Below are positions 34,984 to 43,629 of a stretch of 64,000 nt of DNA, piece by piece. The stretch comes from Deltaproteobacteria bacterium. GTDB lineage: Bacteria; Desulfobacterota; Desulfomonilia; UBA1062. The DNA is taken from assembly GCA_029552245.1 (NCBI GenBank), contig JAKPDW010000025.1, positions 62,001 through 126,000 of the forward strand. The letters run 5' to 3'. Positions within the stretch are counted from its first letter, which is position 1. Each line of letters starts with the position of its first letter. The position numbers were made by a program, and so were the translations under genes. Below the pieces are notes generated by a model, which saw only the letters and a list, made by a program, of their open reading frames with translations, was not told the DNA's origin and did no database searches.

Positions 34984-36539
34984 TCACCCTTTGGATCCAA
35001 GCGTCTCCTTGAGCTCCCGCTTGAGGATCTTGCCCGATGGGTTTTTGGGGAGCCTGTCCGTGATGACCACCCTCTTGGGGCACTTGAAGCCGGCCAGGCG
35101 CTCCTTGCAATGGGCGATGACATCCTTCTCGGTGAAGGATGCGCCCTGCTTCGGGACGATCACCGCCGTGACGATCTCGATCCACTTGGGATCCGGCAGG
35201 CCGATGACAGCCGCCTCCTCGACCCCCTCGAACTGGGAGAGGACCTCCTCTACCTCCCTCGACGCGACGTTCTCACCGCCGGTCTTGATCATGTCCTTCT
35301 TGCGGTCGACCACGTAGAGGTAGCCGTCTTCGTCGAACCTGCCGAGATCCCCGCTGTGAAACCACCCGTAGGCGAAGGCCTCCGCCGTTTTCTCGGGGTC
35401 GTCAAGATACCCGCTCATGACGTGACCTGACCGGTGCACGATCTCCCCCACCGTCCCGAGGGGTACGAAGCGGCCCTCGTCGTCCATGATCCTCGTCTCC
35501 ACGTTGAGGACGGGCTTGCCTGCGGAACCCGGCTTGAGGAGCTGGTCCTCGGGTTTCAGGATGGTGGCCACCGGCCCCATCTCGGTCTGCCCGTAGTAGT
35601 TCCAGAGCTCTAGCCCCCTGAAGGCCACGCAGAGCTGCTTGATGATCTCCACGGGCATTATGCTGGCGCCGTATGCGGCCTTCTTGAGGCTCCTGAGATT
35701 GTGTTTCTTGAAGTCTGGGTGGTTGAGGATGCCGATCCACACCGTGGGGGGGGCGAACATGTGCGTGATCTGGTATTTCTCGATGTTCCTGATCATCTCG
35801 ACGGGGTCTGCCTTGTGCATGATGACGTTCGTCGCGCCCACGTAGAGGTAGGGCATGAGGAAGCAGTGGAGTTGCGCGCAGTGGAACAAGGGGAGCGCAT
35901 GGAGGCTCACGTCGTAGGTGTCGTACCTCCCGTCGAAGATGCAGCTGTGGTACTGGGACATGAGGGCCCGGTGGGAGAGCATGGCCCCCTTCGGTCTCGA
36001 CTCCGTGCCGCTCGTGTACGGGATCTGGACGATGTCCTCGGCCTCGACATCCACGTGCGGCTCTTCGTGCGGCATCCGTTTCATCTCGGACATGAGGTCG
36101 AAGAAGCCGTCCGGGACCATGGAGTCCCCGAGCGGGATGAACCCCCACCGCTGGACCGAGGGGAAAGACGCCTGGTGGCGTGCTATGACCGGGTAGAGGG
36201 AGTCTTCCACGATGAAGATCTTCGACCTCGAGTGGTTGACGATGTAGGCGATCTCCTCCGCGTTGAGCATGTAGTTGATGGGGACCTGCACCGCACCGAT
36301 CTTCGCCAGGCCGAGCAGCTTATGGGGTAGTAGTGCGAGTTGTAGGCGTAGATGGCCACCCGGTCACCCTTCCTGATGCCGTAGGAGCTCATGAGATGGG
36401 CGAAGCGCCTTGACTCGCGTTCCAGGTCGTAGAAAGAGAGCTGCACGTCACGGAAGATGATCGCCGTCTTGTCGCCGTACTTGGTCGCCGCCCTCCTCGC
36501 CATGTCGCCGACGGTGTCCCGGTTGATGATGTTGCTCAT
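34984..36539 (-). pseudogene. Acyl-CoA synthetase (AMP-binding), disrupted by a one-base frameshift
   Basis: The two reading frames together encode a full AMP-forming acyl-CoA ligase of about 518 residues. The N-terminal part starts at ATG 36539 (MSNIINRDTVGDMARRAA) behind GGGGAGGAACC. The C-terminal part covers the AMP-binding motif PYTSGTESRPKGA, NYYGQTEMGP, SGDLGRFDEDGYLY and the Lys of GKILKREL. The frame changes around 36318-36327, where restoring one base to a CCCC run on the coding strand would rejoin YNSHYYP with KLLGLAKIGAV. Everything else is intact, so either a recent mutation or a sequencing error is likely. Substrate is unknown. Confidence 0.85.
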
Positions 36540-36599
36540 CGCTGGTTCCTCCCCTGGTGTTTCGCTCGCGGCCGCGGCGCGGCCGGGTTGCGCATGGAC

Positions 36600-36628
36600 A
36601 GCATACCAAACATCGACTGAGATATCAA
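36600..36628 (-). promoter_or_regulatory. Sigma70-type promoter for the acyl-CoA ligase
   Basis: TTGATA (36628-36623) and TATGCT (36605-36600) on the minus strand are 17 nt apart, about 60 nt before the start codon. Confidence 0.65.
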
Positions 36629-36837
36629 TGTCGGCGATTCCGGGGGCCGACGTGTTCGGCGGGATCCTGCCTGGTGCAGGCATCCGGCGGAGTAGGCCTC
36701 CTTCCTTTCACTCCCGCCGGTGCCGAGGCGTTTCCCCGGGGTAACGCTCGGCGATGGTCATGGGGTGGCGGCCGGGTATGCGGCAAGGAGCCGGCGGTGG
36801 GGAGTGTCGCCCTGGCTGCTGTTTTCATGGCAGGGCA

Positions 36838-36958: not shown

Positions 36959-38197
36959 TTGAGGCTGTTCGTTGCGTGGGCGGTGTGTGTGACGGTGTGT
37001 GCTCTTTCGCCTCTCGCGGCGTTGGCCGCAGAAAAGGGCACCTGTGCAGCCTGCCACACGAACCCCGAGACCCTCAGGGCCCTCGTTGTCGCACCGAAAC
37101 TCCAGGTCGAGGGGGAGGGGTGAGCGGGTTCGCCCCCGCCGGTCCGGGCGGAGGAATATTACAAGGGGTATCTCGTTGACCCATCCATCCTGGGCTCTGA
37201 CCCGCACCTCTCGAAGGGATGCGTGTTCTGCCACAAAGGCGACGGCACGGCAACGGAACGTGAGAGAGCCCATGCTTCCATGGTAAAGAGACCGTCGGAC
37301 AACCCCCTTTCCTGTGCACCGTGCCATGCGGGTATCGCTGCAGACTATGCGAAATCTCTCCACTTCACCTCGGCCGGACAGCGCCACGGGGTGATCCCCA
37401 GGTTCTCGGCCAAAGAGGTCGCTTTGTTCGACAAGAAGGTGTTCGAGCAGTCGTGCAGGAGTTGCCACGCATCCTGCGGATCGTGCCATGTCAAGTCTCC
37501 GCCCGTCATGGGGATCAGCCTCGGGCTCATCAAGGGCCACGCGTTCGTCAAGAAAGACGAAGGCAAGACGTGTGCATTCTGCCACGGGGGGAGGGTATAC
37601 CCGGAATATACGGGAGAGTACAGCGGGGTAACTGATGTCCATTACCAGAAGGGCATGATGTGCGTTGACTGCCACACGAAGACCGAGATGCACGGTGACG
37701 GCAGGCGATACCTCACCAAGCAGGACGTTCGGCAGAGACCGACGTGCACCACGTGCCACAAGGACATCTCGTCCGGCAAGAAGCTTCGCGTATCAGTGGC
37801 CCACGAGGAACACCGGGGCAAGGTGAGTTGCTACGGGTGCCATGCCGCCGGGCAATACAGGAACTGTTCGGACTGCCACGGCGGCGAGGCGAAGGCAAGC
37901 CCGGGGTTCATCCTGGGGAAGAACCCCAGGAACACGAAGGAGATAACCACCCTCAGGCTCATCCCGACCGTGAGGGACACGTTCGCCAAGGCGGGGATCG
38001 TGCAGGAGAGGTATGACAGGGTGCCCAACTACTGGAACACGCCTGCGCACACCATCAGAAAACGCACGGACAGGACGCAATCGTGCGATGCGTGCCATAC
38101 CGAAAAGAAGTACTTCCTCACCGTCGAGGGCTTGCCGAAGGACGGATCCAGGGCAAACAGGGGCTTGATCCATGCCCCCGGTCCCATAACGAAATAA
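36959..38197 (+). CDS. Multiheme (11-haem) c-type cytochrome with an in-frame TGA, probable selenocysteine
   Basis: Read through one TGA (37121-37123), the frame encodes 412 residues: a signal peptide (MRLFVAWAVCVTVCALSPLA), then eleven CxxCH motifs. They are CAACH, CVFCH, CAPCH, CRSCH, CGSCH, CAFCH, CVDCH, CTTCH, CYGCH, CSDCH and CDACH. TGA is codon 55, in the context VEGEG-TGA-AGSPPP, after haem 1. The 33 codons between it and haem 2 are open and cytochrome-like (AEEYYKGYLVDP). A hairpin fitting a SECIS lies right behind the TGA. The TTG start at 36959 is inferred from the signal peptide and a GGGGG eight bases upstream. A nonsense mutation is the alternative, but no other lesion is present. 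Confidence 0.8.
37121..37154 (+). promoter_or_regulatory. Putative bacterial SECIS hairpin after the in-frame TGA
   Basis: After TGA (37121-37123) the arms CCGCC (37136-37140) and GGCGG (37147-37151) enclose the apical loop GGTCCG (37141-37146). CC/GG pairs (37133-37134 with 37153-37154) extend the stem beyond one mismatch. The loop begins 17 nt after the TGA and starts with G, fitting the published bacterial SECIS rules (loop 16-37 nt from UGA, G in its first two bases). It resembles the GGUC loop of E. coli fdhF. Confidence 0.65.
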
Positions 38198-38211: not shown

Positions 38212-39105
38212 ATGGAAAGAACAGTCAGGATGGTGGTGTTGGCGGTCCTGGTGATCGGCCTGTCGATCCCCGTAACGCTGATGGCTCAGGACATCGGCCC
38301 CGTTGTCTCTGTGGATTGGCTCGAACAGAACCTGTCGAACCCGAAACTCGTCGTGGTGGACATCCGCAAGGTCGAGGAATACCGCTCGGGGCACATACCT
38401 GGTGCCGTCAACGTGTTCTACAACATCCTCGCCCCTTCGAAGGGGGAACTGAAGAACGAGTTGCCTGGAGACCAGGATCTTCGCGATACCCTGGGCGATG
38501 CCGGCATCTCGGCCGATTCGTGGGTCGTGGTGGCGGGCGTCAACGACACACCCGCCGACAGGTTCAGCATGACCCGCATAGCCATGACGCTCGCCTATGC
38601 GGGGGTGAAGAACGTCGCCGTGCTCGACGGCGGCACCACGTTGTGGGCCGCGAAGGGAAAGGCCCTGTCGACCGACGTTGTAAGGCCCAAGGCCGTGCAG
38701 TTCAAGGGCGTCTTCAACAAGGCGTTCATCGTGAAGAAGGACGAGCTCGCCCAGAAGCTGGGCAAGGCCGTGCTCGTCGACGTTCGTGAGCCCGAGTACT
38801 TCTCGGGGGCGAAGAAGCTCGATTTCGTCGCCCGGGCGGGTCACATCAAGGGGGCGGTCAACCTGCCGGCGGCCTCCCTGCTCTTCACCCCGGAAGGAAC
38901 CTACAAGCCGATGGACGAGCTCAAGGCCTTGGCCCTCAAGGCGGTGGGAGAGAACAAGGACGCCCAGATCGTCGTCTACTGTGACACGGGCAAGGTGGCG
39001 AGTGCATGGTGGATGCTGCTCAGGGCATTCGGCTACATGAACGTCGGCCTGTACGACGGTTCGAGCCAAGACTGGGCCGCAGACCCCAACCTGCCCATGG
39101 AATGA
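38212..39105 (+). CDS. Exported twin-rhodanese protein, active second domain
   Basis: This 297-residue protein has a signal peptide (VLAVLVIGLSIPVTLMA, then QDIGP) and two rhodanese domains. Domain 1 (LVVVDIRKVEEYRSGHIPGA) has no cysteine at the catalytic position. Domain 2 (VLVDVREPEYFSGA) has Cys257 in VVYCDTGKVAS. ATG 38212 follows AGGAGGAGCTT. It lies 14 nt after the first cytochrome gene. A periplasmic sulfur (or selenium) transfer role is plausible; rhodaneses also occur in the ext selenite/tellurite-reduction loci of Geobacter. Confidence 0.88.
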   Translation: MERTVRMVVLAVLVIGLSIPVTLMAQDIGPVVSVDWLEQNLSNPKLVVVDIRKVEEYRSGHIPGAVNVFYNILAPSKGELKNELPGDQDLRDTLGDAGISADSWVVVAGVNDTPADRFSMTRIAMTLAYAGVKNVAVLDGGTTLWAAKGKALSTDVVRPKAVQFKGVFNKAFIVKKDELAQKLGKAVLVDVREPEYFSGAKKLDFVARAGHIKGAVNLPAASLLFTPEGTYKPMDELKALALKAVGENKDAQIVVYCDTGKVASAWWMLLRAFGYMNVGLYDGSSQDWAADPNLPME

Positions 39106-39174: not shown

Positions 39175-41034
39175 ATGCACATGACCATCGTGCGGGCGTT
39201 TCTGGCATGGTTTACGGCCTTGGTTGCGGTGGCCGGCGGGGCCGCCGCGGCCAAGTCCGTGCCCGAGTCCGTCCACATCGACGTGTGGATGAGAAACGAG
39301 AGCGGGCACGTCATCACCCCATGGGACAACGCCACGGACCCGTACAGCCCTCGAAGGACATGCGGTGCGTGCCACAACTACCCTACGGTCGTCAGTGGTG
39401 ACCATTTCCAGCGGGGAGCCGCACCGGAGGGGAAGCCCGCACCATTGAACCGTTTCCCGAAGGAAGGCGTTCTGGGATCGATAAGACCCGAGCCCTACGG
39501 CGGCAGGCATGCGTACGACTGGATCGCGCTCAACGCCCATCATCACCCGGGCGGCGGCCCGATGGAACAGCTGGCTATCGGGGGACAGGGATCATCCCGT
39601 CCCATGAGCTACGTGGATGCCGAGGTCGTCGCCGCGAACCCGAGGAACCCCCACTTCGCATCGAGGCTCACACCAAACGGGCACAGCCATTTCAGGGCGA
39701 GCGGAGCCCTGGAAGCGGACTGTCTCATGTGCCACAAGAACACCTACCACCTGGAGGCCCGCAACCGGCAGATCCTGTACAGGAACTACCGGTGGGCGCC
39801 CGTGGCCGGCGCCGGCCTCGGCGATGTACAGGGGAAGGTCTTCGACCCCGGGCCCAGTGGCGGGCAATGGAACTTCACGCATTACCCCACCGTGGCATAC
39901 AGGTGGAAAGACCCTGTCTTCACATCCGACGGAAAGCTCTCGGGGCGCGTCATCAGGGGCAGGGTGGCTGACGCCGCCTGCCTCATGTGCCACAGGGACG
40001 ACATGGCCGCACGAACCGGGGCGTTCTGTGTCCCGGGTTTCGATGTTCATGCACGCGGGGGCGTAAGGTGCGCGGACTGTCACGCGCCTTCTCCCGGTGC
40101 GAGGGGTGGCAGGCTCGCCCACATGATCGGGCGGGACACCGGTGGGCCTGGGCGGCCACCGGGTGGACAGGCGGTGTGCGTGAGCTGTCACATGGGGGGT
40201 GTTCCCATCGGGGCCGACCCGCGCGTCCGGGCCCGGGCGAAAGACCCGAGCGCCATGCACCTTTCGGTGTTCGCGGGGGCCACGTTCCACCTGAGGCTCA
40301 TTGCCTGCACCGCGTGCCACATCACCCGCCTGCCCGCGATGGGGGCCCACCTCCTGGACGTCTCCACAGGCAAGGCGAGGTGGTTCTCCTCGGACCTCGA
40401 TCGCCTTCTCCCGTCGTGGGTGGATGCATCCATGCCTTCATCCAGAAAGTGGAGCCCGTGGATCGACAGGGTGAACCTCGGCAAGGGATACGGAGAAAGG
40501 TACGTCCCCGTCTCCTTGACGACGGCCCAGTGGTTTGCCGCACAAGGCCCGGGGGGCGCGCTCGAACCCTTGGATGGCGGGGTCGTGGCCAGGGCGGCAA
40601 AGTCGGTGGTGGGCCTCGGCACGGTCGAGGTGGTCACGGTGGGCGGGGGGAAGACGCGAATACGTACGGTTGCGGAAGACAAGGATATCGCTGCGATGAT
40701 CAGGGCGCTCGGCGCACCGGGGGGTATACGACCCGTGTTCATCTCCGACTCGGTCTACGAGCTCGAGGGCGGGCGTCTTGCGGCGAGAGCCCTCCCCTTC
40801 CCGAATACCGTCGTCCGTCCCGTCTGGCACGGGGTGTCACCTGTGGGGGTAGGTCGGACATACGGCGCGTCGGGGTGCACGGATTGCCATAGCCCGCGCT
40901 CGGTGTTTTTCACCGCCTGGAGGATACGATCGGTGGGGAAATTCATAAAGGTGGACGGGTTCGAACACAAGCCGCCCAATTCTTTCCCCCAGATGACCTT
41001 GTGGGGGTTCGACGAGGTCCCCTCCCATGAATAG
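39175..41034 (+). CDS. Periplasmic or outer-surface multiheme cytochrome c (7 haems)
   Basis: This 619-residue protein has a signal peptide (AFLAWFTALVAVAGG) and seven CxxCH motifs: CGACH, CLMCH twice, CADCH, CVSCH, CTACH and CTDCH. Its long haem-free stretches (for example residues 360-570) give it few haems for its size, so it may carry a substrate-binding domain. The conserved NPHFASRL and NTYHLEARN segments are not from a family I can name. Its 3' end overlaps the second rhodanese gene by 8 nt. Confidence 0.85.
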   Translation: MHMTIVRAFLAWFTALVAVAGGAAAAKSVPESVHIDVWMRNESGHVITPWDNATDPYSPRRTCGACHNYPTVVSGDHFQRGAAPEGKPAPLNRFPKEGVLGSIRPEPYGGRHAYDWIALNAHHHPGGGPMEQLAIGGQGSSRPMSYVDAEVVAANPRNPHFASRLTPNGHSHFRASGALEADCLMCHKNTYHLEARNRQILYRNYRWAPVAGAGLGDVQGKVFDPGPSGGQWNFTHYPTVAYRWKDPVFTSDGKLSGRVIRGRVADAACLMCHRDDMAARTGAFCVPGFDVHARGGVRCADCHAPSPGARGGRLAHMIGRDTGGPGRPPGGQAVCVSCHMGGVPIGADPRVRARAKDPSAMHLSVFAGATFHLRLIACTACHITRLPAMGAHLLDVSTGKARWFSSDLDRLLPSWVDASMPSSRKWSPWIDRVNLGKGYGERYVPVSLTTAQWFAAQGPGGALEPLDGGVVARAAKSVVGLGTVEVVTVGGGKTRIRTVAEDKDIAAMIRALGAPGGIRPVFISDSVYELEGGRLAARALPFPNTVVRPVWHGVSPVGVGRTYGASGCTDCHSPRSVFFTAWRIRSVGKFIKVDGFEHKPPNSFPQMTLWGFDEVPSHE

Positions 41035-41770
41035 GTTCCTGGGAACGCCGAGCACGGTCCTGTTGGCCCTCGCCCTTTTCTGCCTGGTGCAGGCGCAGCC
41101 TGCCCAATCACGTCAGGGGTGGAGGTTCGTGTCCCCGGACACGCTCGAGGGGTGGATGAGGACGGATCAGGTAACCTTGGTGAACGTGATGAGCCGCATC
41201 GAGTGCCTGGATCACCGTATCGCTCGTTCGGTCTGCATCGCGTGCGAGCAGTTTGCAAGCTCCATGGAGACTCTCCGCAAGGATGTGAAGCTGGTCCTCT
41301 ATTGCGAAAGCGAGATGTGCCACAGAAGCTGCCTCGCCGCGGACGAGGCGGTGAAGGCCGGGTTCAGGGAGGTCTATGTTCTCAACGGCGGTCTGCCCGC
41401 GTGGAAGAGGGCGGGATACGCCACGGAGTCGGTGCAGAGGGTGAAGCGACGACCCATCCCGGCCGTCAAGGCGGAGGAGCTCAAGCGGTGGCTCATGCGG
41501 CACGGCCAGTACGCGGTGCTGGACATACGGTCGAGAGAACAGTACCGGCGGGAACACCTTGACGGTGCGGTGAACATCCCGTTTTCCGAACTCCACGAAC
41601 GCTATCACGAGCTCGCGAGGGACCGGGGGTACCTCGTGGTGGACGACCAAGGGTTCAGATCCTTTTTGGCATCGTGTTATTTGGCTGAGAAAGGCTTCCA
41701 GGTGGTCAGGCTGTACGGCGGGATGGCCAAGTGGCGTTCATACAAGCAGGCGCAGGAGAAGAGGAGATGA
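41027..41770 (+). CDS. Exported twin-rhodanese protein, active first domain
   Basis: This 247-residue protein has a signal peptide (VLLALALFCLVQA) and two rhodanese-like domains. Domain 1 has Cys93 in LVLYCESEMCHRSC, so it is the likely active one. Domain 2 (AVLDIRSREQYRREHLDGA) has Asp at the equivalent place (VVDDQGFRS). The active/inactive order is the reverse of the gene at 38212. It overlaps the cytochrome before it and the cytochrome after it (ATGA), so all are translated as one unit. Confidence 0.85.
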   Translation: MNRFLGTPSTVLLALALFCLVQAQPAQSRQGWRFVSPDTLEGWMRTDQVTLVNVMSRIECLDHRIARSVCIACEQFASSMETLRKDVKLVLYCESEMCHRSCLAADEAVKAGFREVYVLNGGLPAWKRAGYATESVQRVKRRPIPAVKAEELKRWLMRHGQYAVLDIRSREQYRREHLDGAVNIPFSELHERYHELARDRGYLVVDDQGFRSFLASCYLAEKGFQVVRLYGGMAKWRSYKQAQEKRR

Positions 41771-43629
41771 GCCGAGCAAGGACATGCCTGGCTTTTTTCC
41801 TGGTCGTGGCCTCGGCCTGGGCGGTCGAGGCCGGGATCTTCCGGGTGGATCTGTGGGCGCAGCAGGACCAGGGGTGTGAACGCTGCCACTACGATCAGAC
41901 CTACACGACGGGCTTCGCCGCCTCGGTGCACGCACGGAACTCATGCGCCAGCTGCCATGGGTTCATCAAAGATCTCGGCTCCCACATGAGAGGCGCAGAC
42001 AGACCGAAACCGGTCGACTGCACGACCTGCCACGAGAGGATCTCCCGGGAATACCTGCAGAACTTTCACTACCTGCAGGAGGATTTCAGGTGCGTTGACT
42101 GTCACGGAGACATCCACACGAGAACGGCGTCGAAGGTGCCGGTGAAGATCCGGGCCGTGAAGGCATGCACGAGATGCCATCTCAACGAGGAGTACGTGGC
42201 GTCCGGTCACGCAGAGGCTTTGCTCAGGGGGAACATGGACGCCGCCTCGTGCATGGACTGTCACGGCCTGCACGACACGCGCGTCTACCACACGGCTCTC
42301 CGGACGTACCCGGAAGAAGCCCGCATGTTCTACAACACCAGGTGCATAGCCTGCCACAGCGATGCGGCCATGATGGGACGCAACGCCCTCTCGGCGAAGA
42401 TCGTCGAGTATTACGAGGAAACCTATCACGGCAAGGTGCAGGACGTCGGGTTCGCCACCCTGGTGGCCGGGTGCGCGGATTGCCACACCACCCACAACAT
42501 CCTTCCCAAGACCGACCCAAGGTCCAGCATTCACCCCGACAACCTCGTGACCAACTGCGGCAGGTGCCATACGGGGTTCCACCCGCGTTTCGTGCTCTAC
42601 AAGGCTCACCCCGACTACAGAGACCGTCAGAACTATCCTGCCCTGTATTGGACCTTTGTCTTCATGTCCTCGCTCTTGGTCGTGACGTTCTTGTTCTTCT
42701 GGGTCCACACGGCGCTCTGGTGGAGAAAGAGCTACTGGGAAAAGCACAGGCGCGAGAAGGAAGGCATCGTGGAGGAGGGTTGCTTGATCACCGAAGGCGG
42801 ACATGTCCACGTGGAGCGGTTTTCGAGGTCCGAGCGCCTCATGCACCTGGTCCTCATCTGCTCCTTCTTTACCCTCGTCACCACGGGGTTCCCTTTGAAG
42901 TACCACCGGGAACCATGGGCGCCCCTCTTCCTCGATTTCTGGGGGGGTGCCCACATGGCGGGCGTAGCCCACCGCATCGCGGCGGCGGTCCTCATCCTGC
43001 TCTTCTCCATCGTGGCCTGGCGCTCCGTCCGGTTCGTGGTCGCTCCAGGTGCGGGATGGAAAGGGTGGAAGGAACGCCTTTTCGGCCCTGACTCGCTGTT
43101 CCCCAGATGGAAGGACTGGGAGGACCTGAAGGGCATGGTGCTGTGGTTTTTCGATCGAGGGGAGAAGCCCAGGTTCGATAGATGGACATACTGGGAAAAG
43201 TTCGATTTCTGGGCCGTCTTCTGGGGGATGTTCGCCATCGGGGGCTCGGGCGTCCTGCTGTGGAGCCCCGAGCTCTCTTCCTACATCGTGCCCGGGTGGG
43301 TGCTCAACGTCGCGTCCCTCGTCCACTCCGAGGAGGCGCTCCTTGCAGCCCTGTTCATCTTCACGGTCCATTTCTTCAACACGCACTTCGTGCCGGACAA
43401 GTTCCCCATGGACCGCCTCATATTCACGGGCACCTACTCCATCGACGAGCTCAAGAGGCACAGGCCCCAGGAGTACGAGAGGCTTGCGTCCCAGGGAAAG
43501 CTGGACGAGCTCAAGAGGCCCCACCCCGGCATCCCCCTCAAGCTGGCGGCCGCCGTCGTCGGGCTGGCGAGCCTGCTTTTCGGGTCGCTGCTCACGGTCC
43601 TGTTCATCGTGGCCCTTGTCGGACGGTGA
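41767..43629 (+). CDS. Nine-haem cytochrome c fused to a b-type cytochrome membrane domain (CbcL-like)
   Basis: This 620-residue protein has a signal segment, then nine CxxCH motifs (CERCH, CASCH, CTTCH, CVDCH, CTRCH, CMDCH, CIACH, CADCH, CGRCH). About six membrane helices of a b-type cytochrome follow (for example FVFMSSLLVVTFLFFWVH and HLVLICSFFTLVTTG). Histidines suited to binding b-haem are present (RLMHLVL, GVAHRIAA, TVHFFNTHF). The layout is that of inner-membrane quinol oxidases such as Geobacter CbcL, which feed periplasmic electron carriers. It would pass quinol electrons to the cytochromes of this operon. ATG 41767 has AGGAGAAGAGGAG upstream. Confidence 0.88.
   Translation: MSRARTCLAFFLVVASAWAVEAGIFRVDLWAQQDQGCERCHYDQTYTTGFAASVHARNSCASCHGFIKDLGSHMRGADRPKPVDCTTCHERISREYLQNFHYLQEDFRCVDCHGDIHTRTASKVPVKIRAVKACTRCHLNEEYVASGHAEALLRGNMDAASCMDCHGLHDTRVYHTALRTYPEEARMFYNTRCIACHSDAAMMGRNALSAKIVEYYEETYHGKVQDVGFATLVAGCADCHTTHNILPKTDPRSSIHPDNLVTNCGRCHTGFHPRFVLYKAHPDYRDRQNYPALYWTFVFMSSLLVVTFLFFWVHTALWWRKSYWEKHRREKEGIVEEGCLITEGGHVHVERFSRSERLMHLVLICSFFTLVTTGFPLKYHREPWAPLFLDFWGGAHMAGVAHRIAAAVLILLFSIVAWRSVRFVVAPGAGWKGWKERLFGPDSLFPRWKDWEDLKGMVLWFFDRGEKPRFDRWTYWEKFDFWAVFWGMFAIGGSGVLLWSPELSSYIVPGWVLNVASLVHSEEALLAALFIFTVHFFNTHFVPDKFPMDRLIFTGTYSIDELKRHRPQEYERLASQGKLDELKRPHPGIPLKLAAAVVGLASLLFGSLLTVLFIVALVGR

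Follow-up and report, generated by a model that had tools for sequence, protein, structure and literature searches.

A probable selenocysteine-containing undecahaem cytochrome c encoded beside an exported rhodanese

The stretch of DNA analysed here (the window, 64,000 nucleotides) carries a gene for an eleven-haem c-type cytochrome whose frame is interrupted by a single TGA, and comparison with homologues makes it highly probable that this UGA, codon 55, encodes selenocysteine (Sec) and that the gene is a selenoprotein gene. The frame runs on the forward strand from a TTG start to a TAA stop (36959–38197, with the TAA at 38195–38197) and specifies 412 residues. The TGA lies at 37121–37123, within the motif GEG-U-AGS, and is the only one inside the frame.

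The translation opens with a predicted N-terminal signal peptide (LRLFVAWAVCVTVCALSPLAALAA, 36959–37030; the cleavage site is approximate), for which the structural model has a helix spanning residues 2–23. Haem motif 1, CAACH (37043–37057), is the sole CXXCH motif before the TGA. Translation and alignment place ten more after it: motif 2, CVFCH (37220–37234), motif 3, CAPCH (37313–37327), motifs 4 and 5 (CRSCHASCGSCH, 37454–37489), motif 6, CAFCH (37571–37585), motif 7, CVDCH (37661–37675), motif 8, CTTCH (37745–37759), motifs 9 and 10, CYGCH and CSDCH (37829–37879), and motif 11, CDACH (38084–38098). All eleven, including motif 1 in 59 of 59 sequences, are invariant columns of our 59-sequence alignment (A2); in L121–L123 a simple CXXCH pattern counts ten motifs. 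The signal peptide and the conserved CXXCH motifs mark the product as a multihaem c-type cytochrome, and it matches Pfam Cytochrome_C7 over the cut-off. An earlier note on this DNA had described one TGA in an otherwise open frame, a signal peptide, one haem motif before the TGA and ten after it, and had quoted several peptides, all of which we re-read as given.

The same note had proposed aligning homologues at codon 55 as a check on its Sec reading. In alignment A2 a TGA occupies this column in 57 of 59 sequences, and the two exceptions, both non-Cys losses, carry Pro (L035) and Tyr (L116). The stop codon found there is always TGA, never TAA or TAG. The site is embedded in the motif GxGU[AG]G, or AGUGV in one clade, and the Gly preceding Sec is invariant across the 59 sequences. 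Cys was seen at the Sec column in none of the 59 aligned homologues, so that the usual argument from a Sec/Cys pair is unavailable among these sequences. Within a first homologue set (L009–L036 and others, 30–69% identity), 32 of the 33 members covering the site carry TGA at the exact column. When 395 genomes from the phylum were searched with a profile, 57 of them gave matches at E < 1e-20; 49 of the 50 matches that span the site contain exactly one TGA, and site-spanning members occur in about one in every eight to nine of the sampled genomes. Most homologue sequences come from MAGs, and sequencing error at the TGA, which the note had named as a refuting outcome, is excluded by the recurrence of the same TGA in independent genomes.

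In our tree the two Sec-less sequences are placed apart, and L035 is nested within a Sec-bearing group. Judged from this topology, Sec appears to be ancestral, with two or more losses, the long branch of L116 calling for caution; its absence in these two lineages indicates that it is dispensable there. One genome holds a second copy of the gene (G353:C28:17421–18448) that is split over two frames and lacks the N-terminal region with Sec; it seems to be a paralogue that has decayed or been truncated.

Downstream of the TGA lies a candidate bacterial SECIS (bSECIS) hairpin (37134–37153, forward strand), with a core stem formed by 37136–37140 and 37147–37151 and the loop GGTCCG at 37141–37146, beginning 17 nt after the TGA. 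The coordinates given earlier for this element, with its 5-bp stem, loop and spacing, are correct. Taken alone, the window hairpin is unremarkable: its folding energy is not significant against 200 shuffles (z −1.16; 20/200), and an Rfam scan of it returned no match. The bSECIS check suggested in the earlier note thus finds its support in the comparison across clades, through pairing, synonymous constraint and compensatory changes, and not in the single fold.

When bases are numbered from 1 at the T of the TGA, the 39 sequences of the near clade pair positions 15–20 with 27–32 around a six-base loop (21–26), usually GGTC.. or AGTT.., and 93.6% of the pairs form, a value reached by 1 of 500 shuffles; these pairing figures and the codon counts below rest on related sequences and should not be read as probabilities. 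The third base of codon +8 is G in 39/39 near-clade sequences, where the codon use of the individual genes leads one to expect 15.8, and this codon specifies Arg, Lys, Pro, Ser or other residues yet always ends in G. Constraint of the same sort is seen at codon +9 (G in 39/39, 10.4 expected), codon +4 (T in 36/39, 7.3 expected) and codon +5 (G in 30/39, 11.6 expected), whereas the other nearby codons are mostly at expectation, the exceptions being the codon before the TGA, +1 and +6. The Gly codon immediately preceding the TGA (window 37118–37120), which is outside the stem, is GGG in 31/39 near-clade loci (9.2 expected), possibly reflecting an influence of context on the decoding of UGA.

Sequences of the far clade form another stem, GTGGCTCC-GTT-GGAGCCAT, whose loop likewise starts at position 21, so that the spacing from TGA to loop is constant between the two clades. 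Pairing there amounts to 94.2% of cells versus 83.8% in shuffles, none of 500 shuffles being as high; four of the eight pairs show two-sided (compensatory) changes, and shifting the partner by 1–3 bases lowers pairing to below 50%. As read from these alignments, the constraint pattern is located where a bacterial SECIS element needs it.

Each of the four genes for Sec synthesis and insertion that had been suggested as a further check is present in the genome: a tRNA-Sec (selC) with a TCA anticodon (74.5 bits, over the cut-off), selA (523.9 bits), selB (339.7 bits), located on the contig that also carries the window, and selD (390.1 bits), which itself contains one in-frame TGA, as expected of a Sec-type SelD. 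The sel genes, the conserved TGA and the comparative conservation of the hairpin together uphold the Sec reading first made from the window.

Two other explanations of the TGA were weighed against this evidence. The TGA could be a real stop, leaving either two conserved, translationally coupled genes (an alternative that was also raised for the ExtKL cytochrome in 2007, PMC1914089), a pseudogene or an assembly error. Decayed genes do show a single in-frame stop, and a neighbouring AMP-ligase gene in this MAG is apparently frameshifted, but the homologues show only TGA, which in 57 sequences falls in one and the same column, and none changes frame between haems 1 and 2. The codons of the stem are constrained, and no separate signal peptide precedes the portion encoded beyond the TGA. 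Attachment of haem in cytochrome c maturation follows export; the second part could therefore not be exported alone to receive its haems. We consider a real stop very improbable. Reassignment of TGA to Trp or Gly throughout the genome, in favour of which nothing was found, is more improbable still: Rho1, Rho2 and MHCb, three further genes of the operon that are described below, end normally in TGA, which indicates that the genome-wide code is standard, the Sec machinery is complete, and the TGA is common to relatives in many families.

The cytochrome gene is followed by four genes on the same strand. Rho1 (38212–39105) encodes an exported double rhodanese with the catalytic-type motif YCDTGKVA in domain 2 and ends with TGA. 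It is followed by MHC619 (39175–41034), an exported cytochrome with seven CXXCH motifs that is conserved in the operon, by Rho2 (41027–41770), a second exported double rhodanese ending with TGA, and by MHCb (41731–43629; the true start is probably an ATG near 41767, and the stop is TGA), which combines nine CXXCH motifs with a membrane cytochrome b561 domain and is presumed to be the quinone-side partner. The order Sec cytochrome–Rho1–MHC619–Rho2–MHCb recurs at ten loci (L009, L010, L014, L015, L017, L025, L028, L029, L034 and L036). Upstream, on the reverse strand, an AMP-binding acyl-CoA synthetase gene (34984–36683) is split into two overlapping frames (36183–36683 and 34984–36291) in a manner resembling a single-base frameshift near 36290–36300, by assembly error or decay.

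Rho1 lies directly 3′ of the Sec cytochrome gene in nearly all near-clade loci, where it is conserved beside the cytochrome and in most cases keeps the catalytic-type loop YCD[ST]G[KR]. In seven Smithella/Syntrophaceae-type loci, genes for NrfD, a 4Fe-4S protein and a c7 cytochrome precede the Sec cytochrome and Rho1, and in a third clade (L117–L120) two rhodaneses follow the Sec cytochrome. By gene order, the predicted Sec cytochrome and rhodanese behave as a module joined to alternative quinone-side partners. One homologue is fused to a double rhodanese (L116:267–2369, reverse strand); it is Sec-less, with GKGYMVRQ at the Sec site. The other Sec-less homologue, L035, with Pro for Sec, has no Rho1, L021 has Sec and no adjacent Rho1, and no rhodanese was seen in the flanks of the far-clade loci L121–L123 and L125–L128. 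Sec and rhodanese are therefore not strictly tied, since L116 has a rhodanese without Sec and L021 has Sec without an adjacent Rho1.

To view the protein in three dimensions we relied on a second AlphaFold model (mean pLDDT 81.8, pTM 0.77), a first model built on 27 sequences having been set aside as too poor (pLDDT 57). The linker that joins haems 1 and 2, rich in Gly and Pro, contains Sec and forms a loop with a pLDDT of only about 55. The best VIA-align match of the model is the octaheme tetrathionate reductase 1sp3 (Z 9.2, 248 aligned residues, r.m.s.d. 4.3, 17% identity), the next-best match scoring Z 3.9, whereas a Foldseek search of the model against the PDB gave no significant match. 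Comparison by hhalign of the Sec-cytochrome family with six octaheme sequences aligned residues 22–297 (E 5.6e-11, 97%). We take the model and the profiles as suggesting a distant kinship of the haem core, and not membership of that family. A group of smaller cytochromes (L053–L060, 355–394 residues) is similar to residues 130–308 only and lacks the Sec linker; the two that were read, L053 and L059, have eight CXXCH motifs each, and the group is possibly a sister family of the haem core.

The periplasmic rhodanese beside the cytochrome suggests sulphane sulphur as the substrate, and the neighbourhood points to sulphane-sulphur chemistry rather than to the reduction of chalcogen oxyanions or the haem ligation that the earlier note had put forward for the selenol. 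By analogy, we tentatively propose that the Sec cytochrome may be a periplasmic respiratory sulphane-sulphur oxidoreductase with polysulphide, thiosulphate or tetrathionate as its substrate, and that Sec receives the sulphur from the rhodanese; the reducing direction is the more probable one. UGA55 would be decoded by SelB and tRNA-Sec, directed by the hairpin whose loop lies 17 nt downstream, to give one exported eleven-haem c-type cytochrome. In the periplasm, Rho1 would hold sulphane sulphur in persulphide form, and the Sec55 selenol would accept sulphur from Rho1, or pass sulphur to it, as an Se–S adduct. The haem chain would supply or remove electrons and be connected for this exchange to the quinone pool via MHCb (cytochrome b561) in the window and via NrfD, the FeS protein and c7 in Smithella-type operons. 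We infer the substrate, the direction, the Se–S chemistry and the decoding in the cell.

Sec55 could instead have a structural or electronic role, for instance as an unusual distal ligand to a haem or as a redox switch, the protein being a mere carrier of electrons and the rhodanese acting elsewhere. Nine non-motif His residues are near-invariant (83, 105, 135, 194, 228, 245, 282, 285 and 364) for eleven haems, which leaves two haems without a conserved His partner, and Sec55, Met233 and Tyr300 are other highly conserved residues that could serve. For a ligand, however, it would be odd that Sec was lost twice with no Cys, His or Met in its place; the Sec linker is flexible and of low confidence in the model, and the association with rhodanese, including the natural fusion, speaks for sulphur chemistry and against a pure carrier. 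We regard this role as doubtful. A part for Sec in selenite or tellurite reduction, as in the Geobacter ext cluster, appears less likely than that. It would account for the general list of parts shared with extHIJKLMNOPQS (PMC5877670) and for profile matches to ExtM, ExtN, ExtO and ExtH, weak and far below the cut-offs as these are, but no gene for an ExtI porin was seen among the scanned neighbours of the window gene, ExtKL (NF040886) has no match in the genome, and both the position of Sec and the architecture differ from those of ExtKL. Moreover, the link to selenite in Geobacter was shown by deletion of ExtI and not for the Sec residue (PMC5877670). What probability these readings and the sulphane-sulphur proposal leave between them falls to other substrates.

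The sulphane-sulphur proposal, extended to the whole family, describes what might, still more tentatively, be a new respiratory selenoenzyme class of many uncultured Syntrophales and their relatives, in which an Se–S intermediate is formed with sulphur from a dedicated rhodanese, the haem chain reduces or oxidises it and electrons are exchanged with quinone. To our knowledge, few respiratory acceptors are known for syntrophic bacteria. The conserved partnership with rhodanese and the one natural fusion make sulphur or chalcogen respiration in these organisms a testable proposal. A rare selenoprotein for which no Cys homologue was seen also bears on what selenium does beyond sulphur, and annotation pipelines would split such genes at the TGA.

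The earlier note knew of no experimentally described Sec multihaem cytochrome; two predicted or annotated kinds are already on record. ExtKL of Geobacter (GSU2937 plus GSU2936) was predicted to be a Sec cytochrome in 2007 (PMC1914089) and appears as NF040886 in a selenoprotein inventory of 2026, which also lists an octaheme cytochrome (TIGR04315) annotated in GenBank as containing Sec (PMC13188914). Like ExtKL, the window protein is a multihaem c-type cytochrome with an in-frame TGA, encoded in a cluster with a rhodanese (ExtH in Geobacter) and further cytochromes. ExtKL, however, has five haems, all before Sec, which in the members read is in a C-terminal, haem-free domain with the motif GHxIPDGUPTPNR, whereas the window cytochrome has eleven haems, with Sec in a Gly/Pro linker that follows haem 1. 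The window protein has no NF040886 match at E values up to 1 (the cut-off is 250 bits), and with its different architecture it was rejected as a member. Another genome has a tandem pair of ExtKL-type genes (G068:C12:96118–98740) that exceed the cut-off of NF040886 and contain no internal TGA; they are Sec-less forms. The ext cluster as a whole resembles the operon in combining a rhodanese, a Sec cytochrome, other multihaem cytochromes and a membrane cytochrome b. The rhodanese scores only 56 bits against ExtH, for which the cut-off is 200, and the matches to ExtH, ExtM, ExtN and ExtO are all far below their NCBIfam cut-offs; membership of the ext operon was rejected on this ground, because no porin was seen among the scanned neighbours and because the Sec protein is a different one.

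In Sec-bearing members of the octaheme family Sec likewise lies between haem motifs 1 and 2, and the fold and profile comparisons suggest a distant similarity. The octaheme family has eight haems and a motif NNF[C/U] in which other members have Cys; the Sec residues of the two families do not align by hhalign, and the window protein scores 15.6 to 18 bits against a TIGR04315 cut-off of 375, so that membership was again rejected. Among octaheme matches over the cut-off, 14 of 34 carry one TGA. In the two TGA members that were read (L138 and L141), Sec replaces the Cys of NNFC and aligns to residue 64 of 1sp3, a number counted from the alignment; the octaheme family thus offers a natural Sec/Cys pair with a solved structure.

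For the chemistry proposed here, TsdA and probably SoxXA provide a precedent, as there a Cys at the haem binds the sulphane sulphur of thiosulphate covalently in an adduct (PMC5146829). With far fewer haems and a Cys-ligated haem, they serve as a model of the chemistry and are not claimed as homologues. No NCBIfam model covers the Sec-cytochrome family, none of the entries in the 2026 inventory of 119 selenoprotein families was matched to it (PMC13188914), and no prior report of a Sec undecahaem family was found in the open-licence literature. NF049953 ('hypothetical protein DG', motif GUxG), with no over-cut-off match in six genomes that bear the family, is a different protein. Judged by these comparisons, the predicted eleven-haem Sec cytochromes are a family of selenoproteins that, though of a known kind, had not been listed before.
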